The translations under genes were made by a program, and so were the position numbers. A stretch of 36,390 nucleotides of DNA from an uncultured Gammaproteobacteria bacterium (GTDB lineage Bacteria; Pseudomonadota; Gammaproteobacteria; JAADHQ01), in the NCBI GenBank assembly GCA_947258655.1, contig CAMYJD010000028.1:1-36390 (forward strand), in the 5' to 3' direction. Under the pieces are notes generated by a model. The model had not been told where the DNA came from. It saw only the letters and a program-made list of their open reading frames with translations, and did no database searches. This document shows, piece by piece, positions 2,586 to 29,403 of this stretch (its first letter is position 1; each line of letters starts with the position of its first letter).

Positions 2586-5489
2586 GTGCAGGATTTTGTA
2601 CCAGGTCAGCGCTGGATCAGTAATGCCGAACTGAATTTGGGCCTAGGAACTGTTGTTGCCGTCGACTTTCGCACAATCAATATGGTTTTCCTCGCCAGTG
2701 GCGAAACCCGCGCTTACGCCAAACAAACCGCACCTCTGAACAGGGTGGCATTTGCACCAGGTGACAGTATACGCAGCCATGAAGGCTGGGGCCTGACGGT
2801 ATCATCGGTCCATGAGGACAATGGTCTGCTGACCTATTATGGACAACACGAAGATGGCACGGAAGCACAGCTTGAGGAAGGAGAACTGGATAATTTTATT
2901 CAGTTAAACAGACCCACAGATCGTCTGTTTACCGAGCAAATTGATAAGGACAAATTATTTGTTTTACGTCACCGCACACACCAGCAATTAAACCGCCTGT
3001 CTCACACTGCCACACGCGGCCTGACCGGTGGACGTACGAGCCTGATTCCACATCAACTCTATATTGCCAAAGAAGTCGCCAATCGCTATGCACCGCGCGT
3101 ACTACTCGCAGACGAAGTCGGCCTGGGCAAGACCATCGAAGCTGGCATGATCCTGCATCAGCAACTTGTAACAGAGCGCGCCAAACGTATACTGATCGTC
3201 GTGCCAGAAACCCTACTACATCAGTGGCTGGTGGAAATGCTACGCCGCTTTAACCTGTTCTTCAGTATATTTGATGAGGAACGATGCCGCGCAGCAGAGG
3301 AAAGCACACAGCAGCAGAATCCGTTTCAGACCGAACAACTTGTACTGTGCACACTCGATTTTCTCGTCCAGCATCCACACAGATTCAAACAGGCACTGGA
3401 CGGGGAATGGGACCTGATGGTTGTCGATGAAGCCCATCATCTGCAATGGTCACCACAGGAATCCAGCATCGAGTACAATTGCATTGAACAACTTGCGGCC
3501 GTTACCAGTGGTGTTTTACTGTTGACAGCAACGCCGGAACAACTCGGCAAGCAAAGTCATTTTGCCCGTCTGCGCCTGCTTGATCCCGATCGCTTCCCGG
3601 ACTTTGACAATTTTATTGAAGAGGAAAAGTCCTATACACCAATAGCACACGTCGTAGAAGTCCTGCTTAATGGACAAGAACTCGATCCATCGAGTCTCAC
3701 TATTCTGAAAAATACAATAGGCGAAGGCGATAACCTTGAACTACTCAATACACTCCTGGACAGTGGCACCGACCAGCAGACTATCGCCATGGCCAGACAC
3801 AAGCTGGTTGAACACCTGCTTGATCGCCATGGCACCGGCCGCGTTCTGTTCAGAAATACGCGTGCTGCGATCAAGGGATTTCCGGGCCGACACGTCCACG
3901 CCTACCCACTGGCTGTACCTGGGCAATATGCCGAATGCCTCGCAGACCTCCAGGCTACCGGCATTACCGATCTACTGCAATTGTTATGCCCGGAACTGGT
4001 GTACCAGAGCATGTCAAGGCAAGGGCAAGCGCCGTGGACTGAATTTGACCCGCGCGTGGAGTGGTTGCATGACAAGCTCAAACAACTAAAGAGCGAAAAG
4101 GTGCTTGTCATTACTGCCAATGCAGAAAGCGCCCTCGACCTCGTTGATTCCCTGCGTGCTCGCTCCGGTATTCACGCCGCCGTCTTTCACGAGCAGCTCA
4201 GTATTGTCGAACGCGATAGAGCAGCGGCTTTTTTTGCCGACAAGGAATATGGCAGTCAGGTATTGGTATGTTCCGAGATCGGCAGCGAGGGACGCAATTT
4301 TCAGTTCGCCCATCACCTGATTCTGTTTGATCTGCCACTAAATCCCGACCTGCTAGAGCAACGTATCGGTCGTCTTGACCGCATCGGGCAGACAGAGACT
4401 ATCCGGATACATGTACCTTATCTTCAAAACAGCGCCCAGGAAATCATGTTCCAGTGGTATCATTTCGGCCTCAATGCCTTCGAACAGACCTGCCCGACCG
4501 GGCATAATGTTTTTGTTCAGGTTGAAGATGCACTGATTGAAGCACTTCATCAGATTGAGGATGGCATAGATGATTTGCCCGCCCTGATTGCAACAACACA
4601 AGGCATAAATCAACGCCTTGTACAGGAATTGCAGCAGGGCCGCGACCAGCTACTGGAATATAACTCATGCCGCCCGCTGGTCGCCGAATCGATCAGGGAA
4701 ACGGCACTACAGGAGGACAGGGACTCCAGTATCATCTCCTATATTGAAGACTGCTTCGACTGTTTCGGCATTGACTTTGAAGATCATAGCGAACATTGCT
4801 ACATTGCCCGTCCCGGCGAACATATGCAGGGCGGCAATTTCCCCGGGCTCCACCAGGAAGGCATGACCCTGACCTATGACCGCGATACAGCACTGGCAAA
4901 CGAAGATATTCAATATATCACCTGGGACCATCCACTCATCACTGCACTAATGGATATGATCGTCACTGACGAACCGGGTAACACCGCGGTTAGCGCCATT
5001 AAGATTCCGTCTGTCAAGCAGGGCAGTCTGTTACTCGAGTGCCTGTTTATACTCGACAGCGGCAGCGACAGGGAAGTTGCCAATATCCGTACACTACCGG
5101 CTCCAATGATTCGCACCGTTATCGATCAACGCGGACAGGATTTAACCGATACATTGCAACATGAAAATATAAACCGTGGCTGCGAAAATGTACCACATGA
5201 AACAGCCGTCAAAATCGTACGCGGGTTTACCCCGACCCTGAAACAAATGGTCACGCAGAGTAAAGCCCTGGCACAGTCACGTTCAGGCAGCAAGCTGGCC
5301 GAGACTTATCAGCCTGTCCTGGCCAAACTCGAAACCGAATCGAGTCGCCTGCTGGCCTTGCAACAGGTAAATCCCAATGTGCGCGATGAGGAGATTCAAT
5401 TTTTTCAATCGCAACACACTACGCTGTCACAGCTGATGGAGACTGCAACACTGCGCCTGGATGCACTCAGGTTGATCGTAACCATATAA
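2586..5489 (+). CDS. rapA: RNA polymerase-associated SWI2/SNF2 ATPase RapA
   Basis: At 967 residues this is full length for RapA (HepA), the translocase that binds RNA polymerase and promotes its recycling. The N-terminal Tudor-like region opens with GQRWIS and LGLGTVVAVD. The SNF2 motor has ADEVGLGKTIEAGMI at about 175-189 (motif I), DEAHH at 281-285 (motif II) and LLTATPEQLG (motif III). The second RecA lobe has CSEIGSEGRNFQF and LLEQRIGRLDRIGQ. The C-terminal domain ends RLDALRLIVTI, as in the E. coli protein. Translation starts at GTG 2586, supported by AGGA about 9 bases upstream and by alignment with the family start. It appears monocistronic; a long gene-free region follows. Confidence 0.97.
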   Translation: MQDFVPGQRWISNAELNLGLGTVVAVDFRTINMVFLASGETRAYAKQTAPLNRVAFAPGDSIRSHEGWGLTVSSVHEDNGLLTYYGQHEDGTEAQLEEGELDNFIQLNRPTDRLFTEQIDKDKLFVLRHRTHQQLNRLSHTATRGLTGGRTSLIPHQLYIAKEVANRYAPRVLLADEVGLGKTIEAGMILHQQLVTERAKRILIVVPETLLHQWLVEMLRRFNLFFSIFDEERCRAAEESTQQQNPFQTEQLVLCTLDFLVQHPHRFKQALDGEWDLMVVDEAHHLQWSPQESSIEYNCIEQLAAVTSGVLLLTATPEQLGKQSHFARLRLLDPDRFPDFDNFIEEEKSYTPIAHVVEVLLNGQELDPSSLTILKNTIGEGDNLELLNTLLDSGTDQQTIAMARHKLVEHLLDRHGTGRVLFRNTRAAIKGFPGRHVHAYPLAVPGQYAECLADLQATGITDLLQLLCPELVYQSMSRQGQAPWTEFDPRVEWLHDKLKQLKSEKVLVITANAESALDLVDSLRARSGIHAAVFHEQLSIVERDRAAAFFADKEYGSQVLVCSEIGSEGRNFQFAHHLILFDLPLNPDLLEQRIGRLDRIGQTETIRIHVPYLQNSAQEIMFQWYHFGLNAFEQTCPTGHNVFVQVEDALIEALHQIEDGIDDLPALIATTQGINQRLVQELQQGRDQLLEYNSCRPLVAESIRETALQEDRDSSIISYIEDCFDCFGIDFEDHSEHCYIARPGEHMQGGNFPGLHQEGMTLTYDRDTALANEDIQYITWDHPLITALMDMIVTDEPGNTAVSAIKIPSVKQGSLLLECLFILDSGSDREVANIRTLPAPMIRTVIDQRGQDLTDTLQHENINRGCENVPHETAVKIVRGFTPTLKQMVTQSKALAQSRSGSKLAETYQPVLAKLETESSRLLALQQVNPNVRDEEIQFFQSQHTTLSQLMETATLRLDALRLIVTI

Positions 5490-6357
5490 TCCTTTTCCAC
5501 TGTAGCAAATAACCCAGGGGATATATCAAGCAATTGAATATACATACTTTTTCAGATTGGGTGTTGGAAAAATGGCAGCGCCTGGTAAATTATTGTTGAA
5601 AAATTGCCATCCCGTACTTAAAAGTAATTTATTGACTTATTTTCATAAGTAATTGATGTTTAGCGCGTAGCCTGGTTTTCCACATTTACTGTGGATAACT
5701 TTGTGGATACATGGTTGGAAGAGCCCGCAAACCCGCGAAAATACACCCAATTTGTTAAATTGCGCAATAATTACACAATTGTAATAGTTGCGTTAAATCA
5801 ATAGCTTAATTAAACTATATTACAGACGTAAAATAACTCGATGACAGTGCCTTCACATTTTAAATTTCGCGAACTTTCTGTGCATAAAAGTGGCTCGATG
5901 GGCTTGTATGACAAAATATTTTATGTTATTAGCACGAATTCGTAACGACATTAATGTATAAAACACACGTGCAATTGATCGAATCTGCACAAATTTATTT
6001 ATAAAAATAAGCACTATCTAATAAAACTGCAGTGGAAGGCCTATTTTTATATATAAGCGTTTTCTTAAACTTCATCATTATGCCTGGATAATCATTTACT
6101 TAATGTTGAAGCAGGTACTGTCAGTGGCTGTCGAAGAATGCATATATGCAATTTAATGCAGGCTAACATTGAATATTATTACCTAATTACACCAGCAACG
6201 GGCATTGATGATCGGTTGTGGGGACGCATAGTACTGCAACAACGATAATTTAGCGCGACAGTAATAGACCAGTACAGTCGATGGAATCGGTAGATCTGGC
6301 GGTATCAAAAGATTGTGTGGCATCAAATATTTACTTGCCAAAAGGCAGGTGATGCCC
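5490..6357. other. Gene-free AT-rich region between rapA and the cold-shock gene
   Basis: No open reading frame of convincing length or composition lies here on either strand. The stretch is markedly richer in A+T than the flanking genes. It contains a cluster of DnaA-box-like sequences (5628-5887), described separately. The right part (about 5900-6350) shows no recognisable structure apart from short AT runs. Confidence 0.7.
5628..5887. repeat. Noncoding element copy A with four DnaA-box-like 9-mers
   Basis: The element starts with a 33-base block ending in TAAGTAATTGATGTT. It then has TTTTCCACA (5676-5684), TGTGGATAA (5690-5698, a perfect DnaA box on the minus strand), TGTGGATAC (5702-5710) and, after an AT-rich stretch, TGTGCATAA (5879-5887, fits TTATNCACA on the minus strand). 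A diverged second copy lies at 26382-26640 with spacing conserved to within one base. The first two boxes face each other across 5 bases and can form a hairpin. The arrangement resembles a replication-origin or DnaA-binding locus, but neither copy adjoins dnaA, mnmG or rpmH. Confidence 0.7.
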
Positions 6358-6393
6358 GAAAAAACAAACCCGCAGCAAGCTGCGGGTTTGTTT
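6358..6393 (-). terminator. Rho-independent terminator of the cold-shock gene
   Basis: The sequences at 6362-6376 and 6379-6393 are perfect reverse complements over 15 bases (AAACAAACCCGCAGC core). On the minus strand the GC-rich stem is followed by a run of T. It lies 21 bases past the stop codon of the cold-shock gene. The A/T symmetry of the outer stem could let it work in both directions. Confidence 0.9.
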
Positions 6394-6413
6394 AGTTATT
6401 AACAGTTCGAAAA

Positions 6414-6617
6414 CTAGTTAACAGTGACTTGCTTAGCTTGAGGGCCCTTAGGGCCATCTTCTACTTCGTAATTGACACTCTGTCCTTCCGCCAGTGTACG
6501 AAAACCATCTGCATTGATCGCAGAAAAATGTACGAATACATCTGCGCTACCATCAGAAGGTGCAATAAAACCAAAACCCTTAGATTCGTTAAACCATTTA
6601 ACAGTACCAGTTGCCAT
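6414..6617 (-). CDS. Cold-shock domain protein, CspA family
   Basis: The 67-residue product is a single cold-shock domain that binds single-stranded RNA or DNA as a chaperone. It begins [18 protein letters not shown], with RNP1 (KGFGFI) at about residues 13-18 and RNP2 (VFVHF) at about 27-31, and ends AKQVTVN. The ATG at 6617 is chosen because it matches the family start; an in-frame ATG further upstream adds unrelated residues. AAAGG lies upstream at slightly long spacing. An AT-rich leader of over 100 bases precedes it, as is common for cold-regulated csp messages. Which Csp paralogue it is cannot be told. Confidence 0.95.
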
Positions 6618-6749
6618 AAAAAAAATACCTTTCATAGAAATTATTAAACATTTACTCGATTGCATAACAAACAAGGCAACTGACAGTACAACCTCTATTT
6701 AAGATAAACCTGACAAGACCTGCATGACATGCATCCACCAAGAACTATA
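6618..6749 (-). promoter_or_regulatory. Probable promoter and long leader of the cold-shock gene
   Basis: On the minus strand TATAGT (6744-6749) is a plausible -10 box, giving a leader of about 120 bases. Long structured leaders are typical of cspA-type messages and mediate cold-dependent stability and translation. No good -35 hexamer is seen at the right distance, so the exact start is uncertain. Confidence 0.35.
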
Positions 6750-23967: not shown

Positions 23968-24282
23968 TTACATTGCGACCTGTCTGGGAATATACATCTC
24001 GCCACGGTATGCGCTAAAATATTTATCAATATCGGGATGATGTATTTCCGACATATTGACAGAAGCAGCCAGATGACGCTCGGCAACATAGGTGGTATGG
24101 GTAGCATTATCCACCAGCACATGATACCAGGGCCTGTCTTTCGGCGGACGTGAACGGGCAACCTGCTGGTACCATTCCTCCGACAGGGAAAAAACAGGAT
24201 CGACTTCAAATATGACACCGCGGTAATCAAACCGGGTGTGCTCGACTATTTGGCCGATATGAAATTTTGCCTGCTGAATCAT
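23968..24282 (-). CDS. hspQ: Heat-shock protein HspQ (YccV)
   Basis: The 104-residue protein begins with KFHIGQIVEHTRFDYRGVIFEVDPVFSLSEEWY, the HspQ signature (E. coli: [30 protein letters not shown]). The central PWYHVLVDNATHTTYVAERHL is also conserved. HspQ is a hemimethylated-DNA-binding-like fold protein that promotes Lon-dependent proteolysis and responds to heat in enterobacteria. AGGG lies about 9 bases before the ATG. It heads a unit with yheS and is divergent from selO, with only 44 bases between the two starts, so their promoters must overlap with the genes or each other. Confidence 0.93.
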   Translation of the reverse strand: MIQQAKFHIGQIVEHTRFDYRGVIFEVDPVFSLSEEWYQQVARSRPPKDRPWYHVLVDNATHTTYVAERHLAASVNMSEIHHPDIDKYFSAYRGEMYIPRQVAM

Positions 24283-24326
24283 CTGCTCATCGCCCTGCTG
24301 TAAACACTAACCTGATTGTCTCATAT

Positions 24327-25814
24327 ATGAAGAAAATCGAACAACTGAAGTTTAACAACACCTATGCCGGTCTGCCGGATGGCTTTTTCAGTCATGTCAG
24401 GCCGACACCACTCGGCGGTGCCCACCTGATCAGTGTCAACCCGGCCGTGGCCGAACTGCTGGAGCTGGACATATCGGATCTGCATCAAAGCGACCGTCTC
24501 GCTATGCTGTGCGGACAGACTGTGCTCGATGACATGCAGCCGATCGCGCAATGCTATGCCGGACATCAATTCGGCTCCTTTGTCCCGCGTCTCGGTGACG
24601 GGCGCGCAATCATGCTGGGGGAAATACAGACCAGTCAGTATGGCAAATGGGACCTGCAGATAAAAGGTAGCGGCCTGACACCCTATTCACGTGACGGCGA
24701 TGGCCGCGCCGTACTGCGCTCGACGATTCGCGAATACCTGTGCAGTGAGGCCATGCATGGACTCGGTATACCGACCACTCGCGCCCTATGCATGATCGGC
24801 AGTGACGAGGAAGTCTACCGCGAACAGATAGAAAAAGGCGCGATGTTATTACGCACAGCACCGTCTCATGTACGCTTCGGTACCTTTGAATATTTTTATT
24901 ACAGCAACCGCCATGAAGAAATCGGCCTGTTGATGGATTATGTCATCCGCCATCACTACCCCGAACTGCAGGATGCAGAGAATCCCGCCCTGGAGCTTCT
25001 GCGCGTGATCATCGACCGTACCGCCAGCATGATCGCACAGTGGCAGGCCGTCGGCTTTGCCCATGGCGTCATGAACACCGACAACATGTCCGTACTCGGC
25101 CTGACCATGGATTATGGCCCTTTCGGTTTCCTCGATGCCTACGACCCCGGCTTTATCTGCAACCATTCCGACTATCACGGGCGTTATGCCTTTGACCAGC
25201 AACCGAATATCGGCCTGTTTAACCTGAGTTGTCTGGCCCAGGCGCTACTGCCAGCCTTCGGCACAGATGTGGATACCGCCGTCAATGCAGCCAAACAGGC
25301 CCTGGAAGAATATCAGTCAAAATATACACACTATTATGCCCGCCTTATGCGTGCCAAACTCGGCCTGCAAAGCCGGCATGATGATGACCAGGCAATCCTG
25401 CAGGCATTACTGGACCTGATGGCGGAAGACGGCGTGGACTATACGATCCTGTTCCGCAGGCTATGCGATTTTTCGACACAGGACTCCTCTGGCAATCATC
25501 CGCTACGCGACCTGTTTATCCACCGGGACAGGTTTGATCAATGGGCACAGCGATATGCACAGAGACTATCCATTGAAGAGAACAGTGATTCACAACGTCG
25601 GACCGTCATGAGCCGCGTCAATCCGGTTTTTATTTTACGCAATTATATGGCAGAGACGGCCATCCGCCAGGCACAGCTTGAACAGGATTATAGTGAAATC
25701 GACCGCATGCTGAATTTATTGCAGGATCCGTTTACCGAACAAGCCGATTATGCACATTATGCCGGCTTTCCACCCGATTGGTCACAACAGATCTCGGTCA
25801 GTTGTTCGTCCTGA
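24327..25814 (+). CDS. selO: Protein adenylyltransferase SelO (YdiU)
   Basis: At 495 residues this is a typical bacterial SelO, a pseudokinase that transfers AMP from ATP to hydroxyl side chains of proteins in redox stress. Visible family blocks are RLGDGRAIMLGEI, KGSGLTPYSRDGDGRAVLRSTIREYL, RFGTFEYF and GFAHGVMNTDNMSVLGLTMDYGPFGFLD, which holds the metal- and nucleotide-binding residues. The protein ends SCSS, placing a cysteine at the C-terminal position where eukaryotic homologues carry selenocysteine. I start at ATG 24327 (MKKIEQLKFNN); the longer frame from 24267 runs into hspQ. Confidence 0.96.
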   Translation: MKKIEQLKFNNTYAGLPDGFFSHVRPTPLGGAHLISVNPAVAELLELDISDLHQSDRLAMLCGQTVLDDMQPIAQCYAGHQFGSFVPRLGDGRAIMLGEIQTSQYGKWDLQIKGSGLTPYSRDGDGRAVLRSTIREYLCSEAMHGLGIPTTRALCMIGSDEEVYREQIEKGAMLLRTAPSHVRFGTFEYFYYSNRHEEIGLLMDYVIRHHYPELQDAENPALELLRVIIDRTASMIAQWQAVGFAHGVMNTDNMSVLGLTMDYGPFGFLDAYDPGFICNHSDYHGRYAFDQQPNIGLFNLSCLAQALLPAFGTDVDTAVNAAKQALEEYQSKYTHYYARLMRAKLGLQSRHDDDQAILQALLDLMAEDGVDYTILFRRLCDFSTQDSSGNHPLRDLFIHRDRFDQWAQRYAQRLSIEENSDSQRRTVMSRVNPVFILRNYMAETAIRQAQLEQDYSEIDRMLNLLQDPFTEQADYAHYAGFPPDWSQQISVSCSS

Positions 25815-25857
25815 TGTCGTCAGCCCCAGGCACCGGGATGCGAAAAGGCGCTGAAAA

Positions 25858-25965
25858 CTAAATACCCGGTATGCCGATAGGACCCGGCATGTCAGGAATA
25901 ACGGTACAGGCTGCTACCAGACAAGCGCTTAACACCACGCCGATTGTTCTAACGAAATTTTTCAT
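25858..25965 (-). CDS. Very small lipoprotein, 35 residues
   Basis: This gene encodes MKNFVRTIGVV, a hydrophobic stretch, and the lipobox LVAAC with the lipidated cysteine at residue 20. The mature peptide would be only 16 residues (CTVIPDMPGPIGIPGI), with collagen-like PGP and IPG steps. The start is well supported by GGGGAG about 9 bases before the ATG. It is convergent with selO. Tiny proline- and glycine-containing lipoproteins with this layout are common in proteobacteria, some acting as entericidin-like or envelope-stress peptides, but I cannot assign a role. Confidence 0.75.
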   Translation of the reverse strand: MKNFVRTIGVVLSACLVAACTVIPDMPGPIGIPGI

Positions 25966-26381
25966 AACTACACTCCCCTGAGTTTACTACTTGACATCGA
26001 CACATCTGACAACTGCTCAAATGTTTCAACATTCCACAATAACGACTGAGGTTCGCCTGGATAAAATAGCTATGCTCAGTCGCCAACAACCAATTCCTGG
26101 CGATTTGTTAAACGATCAATCATGGACATAGACAATCATCCGGTATCTGCCCTGCCATAACATTAACGACCTGTGACAGGTTGATATTAAATATCTGGAT
26201 GATACAGGGATCATCATAGCGGGCAACTCAATACAAATAGTTCAATCGGTCTATTAATGACAACCTGTCCTTGCCCCCATTGATAAATCCCGGATAACGT
26301 GCTCTCCGCTGTCTTGTCAGCATAGTCGTCAGTATACATAGAGATAATTGCGTGAAACTGCGATGATTCAGCTTAATGCTA
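25966..26381. other. Gene-free region upstream of the small lipoprotein
   Basis: No reading frame here is convincing. The left end must hold the promoter of the lipoprotein gene. The composition becomes AT-richer towards the DnaA-box element at 26382. Confidence 0.5.
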
Positions 26382-26640
26382 TTTATTCAGTTATTTTCCT
26401 AAGTAATTGATGTTATTAGATGTCATTGATTATCCACATTCGCTGTGGATAACATTGTGGATATACTGGTAAAAATAGCCTGGAAGCCGCATTCTTACAG
26501 AACCTGGCTTAGATTGCCTAATTATTACTCAAATGTAATAATCATTTATAATCAATATGTTATATATCCTTACGATTTTATATAATATTTACCGAACATG
26601 AATCAGGCCAGTATCGTCGATATTATTTTGTTGTGCATAA
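26382..26640. repeat. Noncoding element copy B with four DnaA-box-like 9-mers
   Basis: This is the second copy of the element at 5628-5887. The first block (33 bases ending TAAGTAATTGATGTT) matches copy A at 30 of 33 positions, and the box region matches at 28 of 32. Boxes are TTATCCACA (26430-26438) and TGTGGATAA (26444-26452), a perfect 9-bp inverted pair, then TGTGGATAT (26456-26464) and TGTGCATAA (26632-26640). The distance from box 3 to box 4 is 176 bases, against 177 in copy A. Between them is an AT-rich stretch with the shared word TGTAATA, which could unwind easily. Confidence 0.7.
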
Positions 26641-26894
26641 ATATAACGAGATAGCCCGGAAAACAGACCATATTGGCTCATCGGGACATGCCAGGAATTA
26701 TATTTTAGTTAGATCACAAGGATTGACCCGCCCCTGTTGGCGTGATTTTTATTGGTGACAGTGGAAAATGCGCCAGTGCCGAAGATAAACAGGCTTTTTT
26801 TGCAATAAAGGAGCATAGGGACTTTAATAAACATCTATTAATCAGTAACTTGAAGCATAATCTCCAGGCCGACTCGCATCTGAAATCAATAATA
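26641..26894. other. Gene-free region downstream of the CDF transporter gene
   Basis: A 63-codon plus-strand frame from 26742 overlaps the end of the transporter gene and has no recognisable features, so I do not call it. No terminator with a clear hairpin and T run is visible. Confidence 0.4.
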
Positions 26895-27827
26895 TCAGTT
26901 ACCGCTCCCGCCGTTATTCAACGCAAGCCTTGATTCCGCCTCGATAAAAATTCGTTTAACATTTGGGAATTTTTGCTTGATATCGCTATCCAGGCGGGCA
27001 ATGGCTTGCTCCAGCTCGATCGCAGTCAGATCATCACGAAAGTCGATGCTGCAATTTGCCAGAATGAAATCAGGCCCCATGTGCATGGTCAGTAGCTCAT
27101 TCACATGCTCCACTTCACTATACAATTCAGCGATAGTGCGAATACCTTCTTCTACCTGTCTGTTGGCACTTTCACCTATTAACAGGCTCTTGGTTTCATA
27201 GGCCAGCCAGATCGCCGTACCCGCCAGTATCAGACCAATAATAACCGAGGCAAGACCATCGAATATCAGAATGCCGGTCGTCTGTGCTAACCAGATTCCG
27301 ACAAAAGCCACAATCAGACCGAGCCCTGCTGCCGAGTCCTCGAATAGTACGACAAACATGGTCGGGTCCTTACCACGCTTGACAGCTTCGATATACCCCC
27401 ATTTACCCTTGGCCTTCGTGAACTCATTAAAAGCGAAATACCATGCAAAACCCTCAAACACGATTGAGATACCGAGAACGATGTAGTTGATCATTGGATT
27501 TTCGATAGCTGTCGGGTGCAGCATTTGATGGATGCCTTCATAGATAGAAACGCCGGCACCGACTGCGAAAATCAGTATTGCGACGACAAAGCTCCAGAAG
27601 TAGATCTCCTTGCCATGACCGAACGGAAATTGTCTGTCGGCAGGCTTGCTCGCCTGGCGCATGCCGAGCAACAACAACACCTGGTTACCGGTATCGACGA
27701 GTGAATGGATACCCTCGGAGAGCATTGCCGAACTACCCGTCATGGCCGCTGCAATAAACTTGGTTACTGCAATCAGTCCATTTCCCACTAGCGCTGCGAA
27801 TATTACTTTTTTAGATGAACCGGCCAT
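26895..27827 (-). CDS. Cation diffusion facilitator (CDF) family transporter, ZnT9-like branch
   Basis: The 310-residue protein has six membrane segments and a soluble C-terminal domain (about 215-310), the CDF layout. The metal site in TM2 is H41-S-L-V-D45. In TM5 the usual second HxxxD is replaced by FEDSAAGLG (E163, D164), as I recall for the branch that includes SLC30A9/ZnT9. PFGHGKEIYFWSF after TM2 is a conserved CDF segment. It probably exports zinc, iron or manganese in exchange for protons; the metal cannot be set from sequence. No metal regulator adjoins it. Confidence 0.9.
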   Translation of the reverse strand: MAGSSKKVIFAALVGNGLIAVTKFIAAAMTGSSAMLSEGIHSLVDTGNQVLLLLGMRQASKPADRQFPFGHGKEIYFWSFVVAILIFAVGAGVSIYEGIHQMLHPTAIENPMINYIVLGISIVFEGFAWYFAFNEFTKAKGKWGYIEAVKRGKDPTMFVVLFEDSAAGLGLIVAFVGIWLAQTTGILIFDGLASVIIGLILAGTAIWLAYETKSLLIGESANRQVEEGIRTIAELYSEVEHVNELLTMHMGPDFILANCSIDFRDDLTAIELEQAIARLDSDIKQKFPNVKRIFIEAESRLALNNGGSGN

Positions 27828-28095: not shown

Positions 28096-28944
28096 CTACC
28101 AGCCAAAGATAACGCCTTCGATCAATTTGTAATGATTGGCAAAATCTTCATCGGTTGCCGGCTTGAAGGCCTTTGCCTTGCCGCCAAAGCGCGCCAGAAT
28201 ATTTTTTGTTGCCGCAATCCGGTCACCCTTTGTCAGAGTTTCGACAATCGCCTTACGTGCCGATGGCTTGACTCGACTGCTGATAGTCAGCCCCTGATTG
28301 GGGAGTGCCGGGCTCTTGTACAGGACCTTGGTGGTACTACGCTGCTCATCGGTCAGCTTCTTGGCATAAAAGGTTGTACGAAAAACCGCACCCTTGCATT
28401 TGCCCGATTCGAATGACTTGTATACCTTAGTGAAGCCTCCCCTGACAGGAACAATAACCGGCTGGCGTGCGGGATGAACATAGGCCGCATAGACCGTCAG
28501 CGTACCGAGATTCGGAGGTGCTATACCGCAGACCTTTCTGCCAACCAGGTCATCTAGATCGGTGACCTTGTCGTCATCCTTGTTGGCTATAATAACGAAT
28601 TCCAGTGTACCTGGCAGTTTGACCACGGCCCTGTGTTCCTTGTTCTTTATGCGCCAGGAGATAAAATGCGGGCCATCAAAAATAATGTCATATTTATCGT
28701 TACGCATGTCGCGTTGATAGGCCAGCCAGTTACCCGGGTGTTTATACGTAACCGTCTCGCCAATCACTTTGCTTAACTCGGTTGCCAGTGGACCATACAG
28801 TTTCAGCCCGGCAGCCTTGTTTTCCCGTGGCGGCGCCGTCAGGATCAGTTCAGCTGCTACAAACTGGGCCTGGCTCGATAACAGGATTATCAGCGTAAGC
28901 GGTTTAACAAAGCGTCCAAGCAGACTGGGTAGAATGTCATTCAT
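28096..28944 (-). CDS. PhnD-like phosphate/phosphonate-type substrate-binding protein
   Basis: The 282-residue protein has a signal peptide (hydrophobic residues about 12-27, cleavage near FVAA/E) and then a type 2 periplasmic binding fold of the PhnD group. Typical segments are LATELSKVIGETVTYKHPGNWLAYQRDMRNDKYDIIFDGPHF, LDDLVGRKVCGIAPPNLGTL and GKCKGAVFRTTFY. Start ATG 28944 has AGGA upstream; an earlier ATG (28989) lacks a signal. No ABC permease or ATPase gene is beside it. Orphan PhnD-like proteins are common in gammaproteobacteria and may serve sensing or transport of varied ligands, so the substrate is open. Confidence 0.85.
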   Translation of the reverse strand: MNDILPSLLGRFVKPLTLIILLSSQAQFVAAELILTAPPRENKAAGLKLYGPLATELSKVIGETVTYKHPGNWLAYQRDMRNDKYDIIFDGPHFISWRIKNKEHRAVVKLPGTLEFVIIANKDDDKVTDLDDLVGRKVCGIAPPNLGTLTVYAAYVHPARQPVIVPVRGGFTKVYKSFESGKCKGAVFRTTFYAKKLTDEQRSTTKVLYKSPALPNQGLTISSRVKPSARKAIVETLTKGDRIAATKNILARFGGKAKAFKPATDEDFANHYKLIEGVIFGW

Positions 28945-29403
28945 TGTTATTGTTTCCTGCAAGCGAGTATAAGTATTCAAAGATAACAAAGCTGTGAATA
29001 CAAGGTTTTAAGAATGATGCAAAACCATGAATTGTACAGACATTATCAGATGTAATATGCAAAATAAACCTGCGAACAGCTTTATCTTTTGTTAAGCCTG
29101 GTAGTAACAGTGTGCTTATCGGCTGCGTTCACGCGTTCTTTAATCTCTCGCTCGCAGCTGTCAGCCGACCATGCAAATCGTTGTAGCTTTTCCCTGAATT
29201 TAGTAATGCAATTTATCCACTAATGAACACCGGTTTCCACTTATCCAGGAATGTGCCGAATCATAATGGATGTTATGTTGCGGTCGGTCAGTCATAGAAA
29301 CCTCCGCAGTATTCGCCGGACTCGCTGTGCGCGCGCAGATGACTTATAGAAAATAGCGGTAATAGTCAATTACCGCTGACAGTGGTTGTTGGCGATCACG
29401 ATT
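28945..29403. other. Gene-poor region with a hairpin and a tiny reading frame
   Basis: AGCGGTAAT (29355-29363) and ATTACCGCT (29369-29377) form a perfect 9-bp stem with a 5-base loop. On the minus strand a 31-codon frame (29295 down to 29200) has GGAGG a few bases before its ATG, but the peptide (MTDRPQHNIHYDSAH...) is not recognised and may be a remnant of a mobile element. The left part contains the PhnD-like promoter. Confidence 0.4.

Follow-up and report, generated by a model that had tools for sequence, protein, structure and literature searches.

Two probable DnaA-reactivating sequences with a recurrent order of candidate Fis and IHF sites, 20.8 kb apart in an uncultured gammaproteobacterium

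Introduction

To our knowledge, the reactivation of DnaA has been worked out almost solely in E. coli. The DnaA-reactivating sequences (DARS) that carry it out act in the direction opposite to datA. DARS1 and DARS2 each contain three DnaA boxes at identical spacing, with box I opposed to boxes II and III (PMC5742627); the head-to-head box pair is characteristic of DARS and essential for it, and sequences like DARS1 and DARS2 are conserved in many proteobacteria (PMC10380432). In E. coli strains, the two DARS loci lie on different replichores (PMC4585315). The flanking sites matter as well: shifting the IHF or the Fis site of DARS2 by 5 bp impaired its activity (PMC4245941).

Here we describe two elements in a 36,390-nucleotide stretch of DNA from an uncultured gammaproteobacterium (contig CAMYJD010000028.1), referred to below as the window. 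A first-pass annotation of these letters had noticed four ordered DnaA boxes in a gene-free region and a second copy of the arrangement, and had proposed an unrecognized oriC, a datA-like site, or a DnaA-regulated leader.

Results

The boxes, their order, their spacing, and the second copy were all confirmed. Each core reads box I, 5 bp, inverted box II, 3 bp, inverted box III; copy A lies at 5676-5710 and copy B at 26430-26464, a distance of 20.8 kb, and the spacings of 5 and 3 bp are the same in both. In copy A, box I (TTTTCCACA, 5676-5684, plus strand) stands head-to-head with box II (5690-5698, minus strand; TGTGGATAA as read forward, TTATCCACA on the minus strand), and box III (5702-5710, minus strand; TGTGGATAC forward, GTATCCACA on the minus strand) follows with one mismatch. 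Copy B has box I at 26430-26438 (TTATCCACA, plus strand), box II at 26444-26452 (TTATCCACA, minus strand), and box III at 26456-26464 (ATATCCACA, minus strand, one mismatch). A distal fourth box, inverted and exact in both copies, is found at 5879-5887 in copy A (minus strand; TGTGCATAA forward, TTATGCACA on the minus strand; +203 from the start of the core) and at 26632-26640 in copy B (minus strand; TTATGCACA; +202).

Compared with a three-box template (TTWTNCACA, then the inverted box after 5 bp and again after 3 bp), each core departs at one base only, the last of box III. When 300 first-order Markov sequences were simulated with the dinucleotide frequencies of the window, the best site of each sequence differed from the template at 5 to 8 bases; the copies are therefore not a product of chance. 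A scan of the 3.48-Mb assembly for the inverted pair, with any gap from 3 to 8 bp allowed, found it at copies A and B only, rather than at the dozens of places expected of a dispersed repeat. Both copies occupy intergenic, noncoding gaps, as had been noted for copy A: no open reading frame of at least 80 amino acids was found within 5490-6413 or 25815-26894. A search of Rfam returned no match in the window.

The geometry of the core extends well beyond this genome. Of 143 relatives, 71 have the inverted pair when, as before, any gap from 3 to 8 bp is accepted; the gap was 5 bp among all matches listed, and the third box was in place in 28 of the 29 relatives' elements compared. These numbers bear out the earlier suspicion that the box geometry is under selection. 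The strict three-box pattern was present in 167 of 377 genomes of the class, while a reversed control pattern gave zero matches in the same 377. A phylum-wide sample of 397 genomes contained the strict pattern in 33, eight of them outside the class: G423, G429, G432, G451, and G458 (family f216), G445 and G470 (f220), and G660 (f247). Two elements (G588:C1:229668-229708 and G445:C13:38658-38698) are symmetrical, with the pattern on both strands and thus four boxes around one inverted pair.

Outside the core, information content computed over 57 elements revealed a motif spanning +79 to +100 and a second one near +120. The former holds the Fis consensus GnnYAnnnnnTRnnC in register at +86 and the latter holds the IHF consensus (consensus forms from PMC4245941 and PMC10380432). 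Since these registers had been found by looking, we turned to a hold-out set of 60 further strict-pattern elements (117 elements in all); some of its genomes belong to families of the discovery set, so that it tests new sequences and not new lineages throughout. With one mismatch allowed, the Fis consensus stood at +86 in 40 of the 57 discovery elements and in 43 of the 60 held out (background, about 0.7 elements per position; 0.67 for the hold-out set); 19 hold-out elements had it exactly (background, 0.05). The IHF consensus at +118 to +123 was matched within one mismatch by 44 of the 60 (background, 0.09 per position) and exactly by 18 (background, 0.002). An inverted distal box, a feature noticed first in the window, lay at +197 to +207 in 39 of 60 hold-out elements, against 6 in the other 292 positions; 37 of 57 discovery elements had one, with 7 at other positions, and over the full set 76 of 117 had one at +197 to +211, with 13 in the other 292 positions. 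Among the 60 hold-out elements, 59 had one or more of the accessory sites and 18 had all three. As the Fis and IHF consensus forms are degenerate, it is the register alone that carries conviction for these candidate sites.

Both window copies have the Fis, IHF, and distal-box consensus exactly and in the conserved register. The candidate Fis site of copy A (GCGCAATAATTACAC, 5762-5776) is at +86, the position enriched over the 117 elements, and its candidate IHF site (AATCAATAGCTTA, 5796-5808, plus strand) is at +120; in copy B the corresponding candidates are GCCTAATTATTACTC (26516-26530, +86) and AATCAATATGTTA (26550-26562, plus strand, +120). A further motif, TTARATTG, at 5755-5762 and 26509-26516 (+79 to +86), directly precedes and overlaps the Fis site, and its conservation across the class is about that of the Fis and IHF sites.

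We built a sequence-only profile, R1, from 56 gammaproteobacterial elements, with E. coli left out. At E ≤ 1e-9, R1 found matches in 291 of 377 class genomes and 212 of 271 genera, mostly one or two per genome; G229 and G360 (family f168) have six strong matches each. Both window copies score about 78 bits. Applied to E. coli, R1 gave 35.6 bits for DARS1 (E = 8e-10, full length), 20.8 for DARS2, 13.7 for datA, and 13.4 for oriC. The best hit in DARS2 is a core followed by two IHF near-matches 3 bp apart, as published for IBS1-2; we read these near-matches as IBS1-2 and the Fis match as FBS2-3. Another candidate for the DARS2 core, L037:3452, was dropped in favor of L037:3136, which has the IHF near-matches 3 bp apart downstream and the higher R1 score.

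Because the core geometry equals that of E. coli DARS1 and R1 ranks DARS1 and DARS2 above oriC and datA, each window copy is very probably a DARS, as judged from sequence. The first-pass annotation was thus right to place the elements among DnaA loci that control replication, while none of the three options it offered is likely and DARS was not among them. The best placed of these is a datA-like site, which would titrate DnaA and, with IHF, promote ATP hydrolysis and so lower the level of ATP-DnaA. The several strong DnaA boxes and the IHF consensus between core and distal box would suit such a site, and any such cluster of boxes titrates some DnaA too; however, the head-to-head pair of boxes I and II with spacings of 5 and 3 bp is the mark of DARS, and the R1 match to datA spans just 56 positions and falls far below that to DARS1. 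We therefore regard a datA-like role as improbable.

The window genome encodes the main proteins that a DARS would be expected to work with. Its Fis-family protein scores above the curated cut-off (102.5 bits), IHF-alpha (ihfA) scores 170.3 bits, Hda (hda) scores 261.6 bits, and dnaA is also present; since Hda is encoded, RIDA is likely active in this lineage. Fis-family matches were found in 359 of the 377 class genomes, only 185 of them above the cut-off. With nearly all class genomes matching, the presence of Fis was uninformative as a test of dependence on Fis.

Each copy is flanked by convergent genes. Copy A lies between rapA (2586-5489, plus strand) and a cold-shock gene (CspE-like; 6414-6674, minus strand; 119.5 bits against a cut-off of 120), and copy B between a selO-like gene (24267-25814, plus strand; YdiU subfamily, above cut-off) and a cation diffusion facilitator gene (26895-27827, minus strand). 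Within the genus, copy A has orthologs in G003 and G002, between the same rapA and cold-shock neighbors, and copy B has one in G003, between selO and the transporter gene; further B-type elements occur in G002 and G001, near the ortholog of window positions 28096-28989. In an alignment of seven genus elements, the core was present and an upstream block was found at -30 or -31 in all seven, an IHF-like site at +120 within one mismatch in six, and the distal box in five. The upstream block, TAAGTAATTGATGTT, lies at -30 in both copy A (5646-5660, plus strand; IHF-like on the minus strand with one mismatch) and copy B (26400-26414, plus strand). It is nearly invariant in the genus, and in a few further families a weaker form occupies the corresponding position.

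Outside the core, copies A and B are 57% identical, whereas the median identity of copy A to all compared elements is 38%, which suggests duplication or exchange inside their own lineage. One copy could be a decaying, nonfunctional duplicate. Decay does happen: a third, weaker relative on the dnaA contig (C12:10528-10738; 30.3 bits) has boxes II and III and a distal box at +202 and lacks box I and a Fis match. It adjoins a parB-like gene about 29 kb from dnaA and has weak, probable counterparts in G003 (on the dnaA contig), G002, and G001. The two window copies, in contrast, both score at the level given above, keep exact Fis, IHF, and distal-box consensus, and have orthologs in other species of the genus, so that decay of either is a slightly poorer prospect than a datA-like role. 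Comparison of context across families found no flanking genes in common outside the genus; an attempt to equate A and B with DARS1 and DARS2 by synteny was abandoned for this reason. A DnaA-regulated leader or promoter of a neighboring gene, a role for which the location of the E. coli DARS loci in the uvrB and mutH promoter regions (PMC5835720) offers a precedent, is very hard to credit, as the genes on both sides of both copies converge and neighbors vary between families while the internal register of the element is kept.

The view that the copies are an unrecognized chromosomal origin in two copies deserves equally little credence. AT-rich DNA with DnaA boxes and with sites for IHF and Fis is what makes up an oriC as well. 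Taken in 3-kb bins, however, the window has negative GC skew in all twelve, and the skew check proposed by the annotation showed no switch at copy A or B anywhere across it. As the annotation had observed, dnaA is not nearby: it is on contig C12, in a block that reads as mnmE-yidC-dnaA-dnaN-recF-gyrB (names other than dnaA from reading translations), and the cumulative-skew minimum of this 88-kb contig, one of 92 in the assembly, falls at 40.0 kb, where dnaA lies. The elements of complete relatives are 114 kb to about 1.04 Mb from dnaA; the smallest element-dnaA distance seen was about 55 kb, on a contig of G086. The low R1 score of E. coli oriC agrees with this.

Placement on the chromosome was followed in the seven single-contig relatives with two strong matches, with dnaA taken to mark the origin (G363 and G310 with rounded sizes). 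Distances from dnaA ranged from 0.07 to 0.73 of the replichore, and in six of the seven each replichore carries one copy, which is also the E. coli arrangement; G363 is the exception. The window pair, 20.8 kb apart, departs from this usual arrangement, which counts against the DARS reading; separate replichores are a feature of placement, however, and not of DARS activity. The join within the window is supported by two relatives: G003:C27, in which the window order persists to about 20.5 kb, and G002:C129, which has that order from 17.2 kb, past the ABC-F gene at 22.1 kb, as far as the copy B counterpart. In G003, separate contigs carry the counterparts of A and B, which lie about 34 kb or more from each other. 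Close pairs were also found in G128:C22 (17.3 kb), G194:C6 (41 kb), and G068:C3 (2.3 kb). DARS-like elements 0.4 to 2.3 kb apart occur at G068:C3:19395-21787, G332:C20:21699-22279, and G181:C1:2379297-2379839; the main contig of G181 has many weaker matches besides.

Discussion

If copies A and B are DARS, their most likely function, by analogy with E. coli, would be to replace the ADP on DnaA by ATP ahead of initiation, under the control of Fis and IHF. From the E. coli system we infer the protein binding, ADP release, timing, and bending that follow. ADP-DnaA, made after initiation, would occupy box I and box II in head-to-head orientation, and one more molecule would sit on box III; the AAA+ domains of the core-bound DnaA would touch each other, and ADP would be released. 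The apo-DnaA would then leave and bind ATP, so that more ATP-DnaA would be available when the dnaA-linked origin next fires. Bends made in the flank by Fis at +86 and by IHF at +120 would gate the reaction by growth phase and cell cycle, and the inverted box at +202/203 may be an added DnaA contact that these bends could return to the core. Any account of what the reversed Fis-IHF order and the distal box do is conjecture; because the order is reversed relative to DARS2, where 5-bp shifts were harmful, the activation geometry of E. coli cannot simply be transferred.

DARS in these genomes are not new in kind, similar sequences having already been reported in many proteobacteria (PMC10380432). 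For the layout of Fis at +86, IHF at +120, and inverted box at +203, a limited search of open-licence papers found no description. The four-box, Fis-before-IHF element may be the ancestral gammaproteobacterial DARS, with DARS1 a copy that has lost the Fis and IHF sites and DARS2 a rearranged form, though we lean slightly away from this reading. If it is true, most of the class uses a bending geometry other than that of E. coli, and copies otherwise split between replichores can come to lie close together with both of them kept, as in the window.

A fixed six-site module present in about three-quarters of the sampled gammaproteobacterial genomes gives a sequence handle with which DARS may be found in lineages that are uncultured or have been little studied. 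The positions at which Fis and IHF act are predicted by this module, which also suggests that the arrangement of E. coli DARS2 is not the usual one. Two copies lying 20.8 kb apart, in turn, offer a natural test of the idea that initiation timing depends on the DARS being placed apart, one on each replichore.

Among known systems, oriC shares with the window copies its DnaA boxes and its IHF and Fis sites; the copies differ from it in having no skew switch, no dnaA, rpmH, or mnmG neighbor, a changing gene context, and, in relatives, a position far from dnaA. E. coli datA is likewise a noncoding cluster of DnaA boxes with IHF that acts on the nucleotide state of DnaA, but to the opposite effect. 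It uses boxes 2, 3, and 7 and one IHF site for head-to-tail assembly of ATP-DnaA, whereas the window core is head-to-head. The R1 match to datA is short and weak. The DARS of ColE1 plasmids, unlike the window copies, is plasmid borne.

The closest relatives are the chromosomal DARS. E. coli DARS2 (rppH-mutH) resembles the window copies in having a three-box core with downstream IHF, Fis, and extra boxes within about 220 bp. Its IHF near-matches are at +93 and +109, its exact Fis match is at +145, and its forward box is at +211, compared with Fis at +86, IHF at +120, and an inverted box at +202/203 in the window. The order in the window is thus core-Fis-IHF and not core-IHF-Fis, and the E. coli DARS2 layout was found in 0 of the 60 hold-out elements; we therefore do not file the copies as DARS2 orthologs. 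E. coli DARS1, unlike the window copies, has no Fis or IHF consensus at +86 or +120 (best, 4 and 2 mismatches), and its boxes near +203 and +223 have one mismatch each, whereas the distal boxes of the window are exact. Its core, TTATCCACT-attcc-TGTGGATAA-cca-TGTGTATTA, between bioD and uvrB, has the same box order, orientation, and 5/3 spacing as copies A and B.
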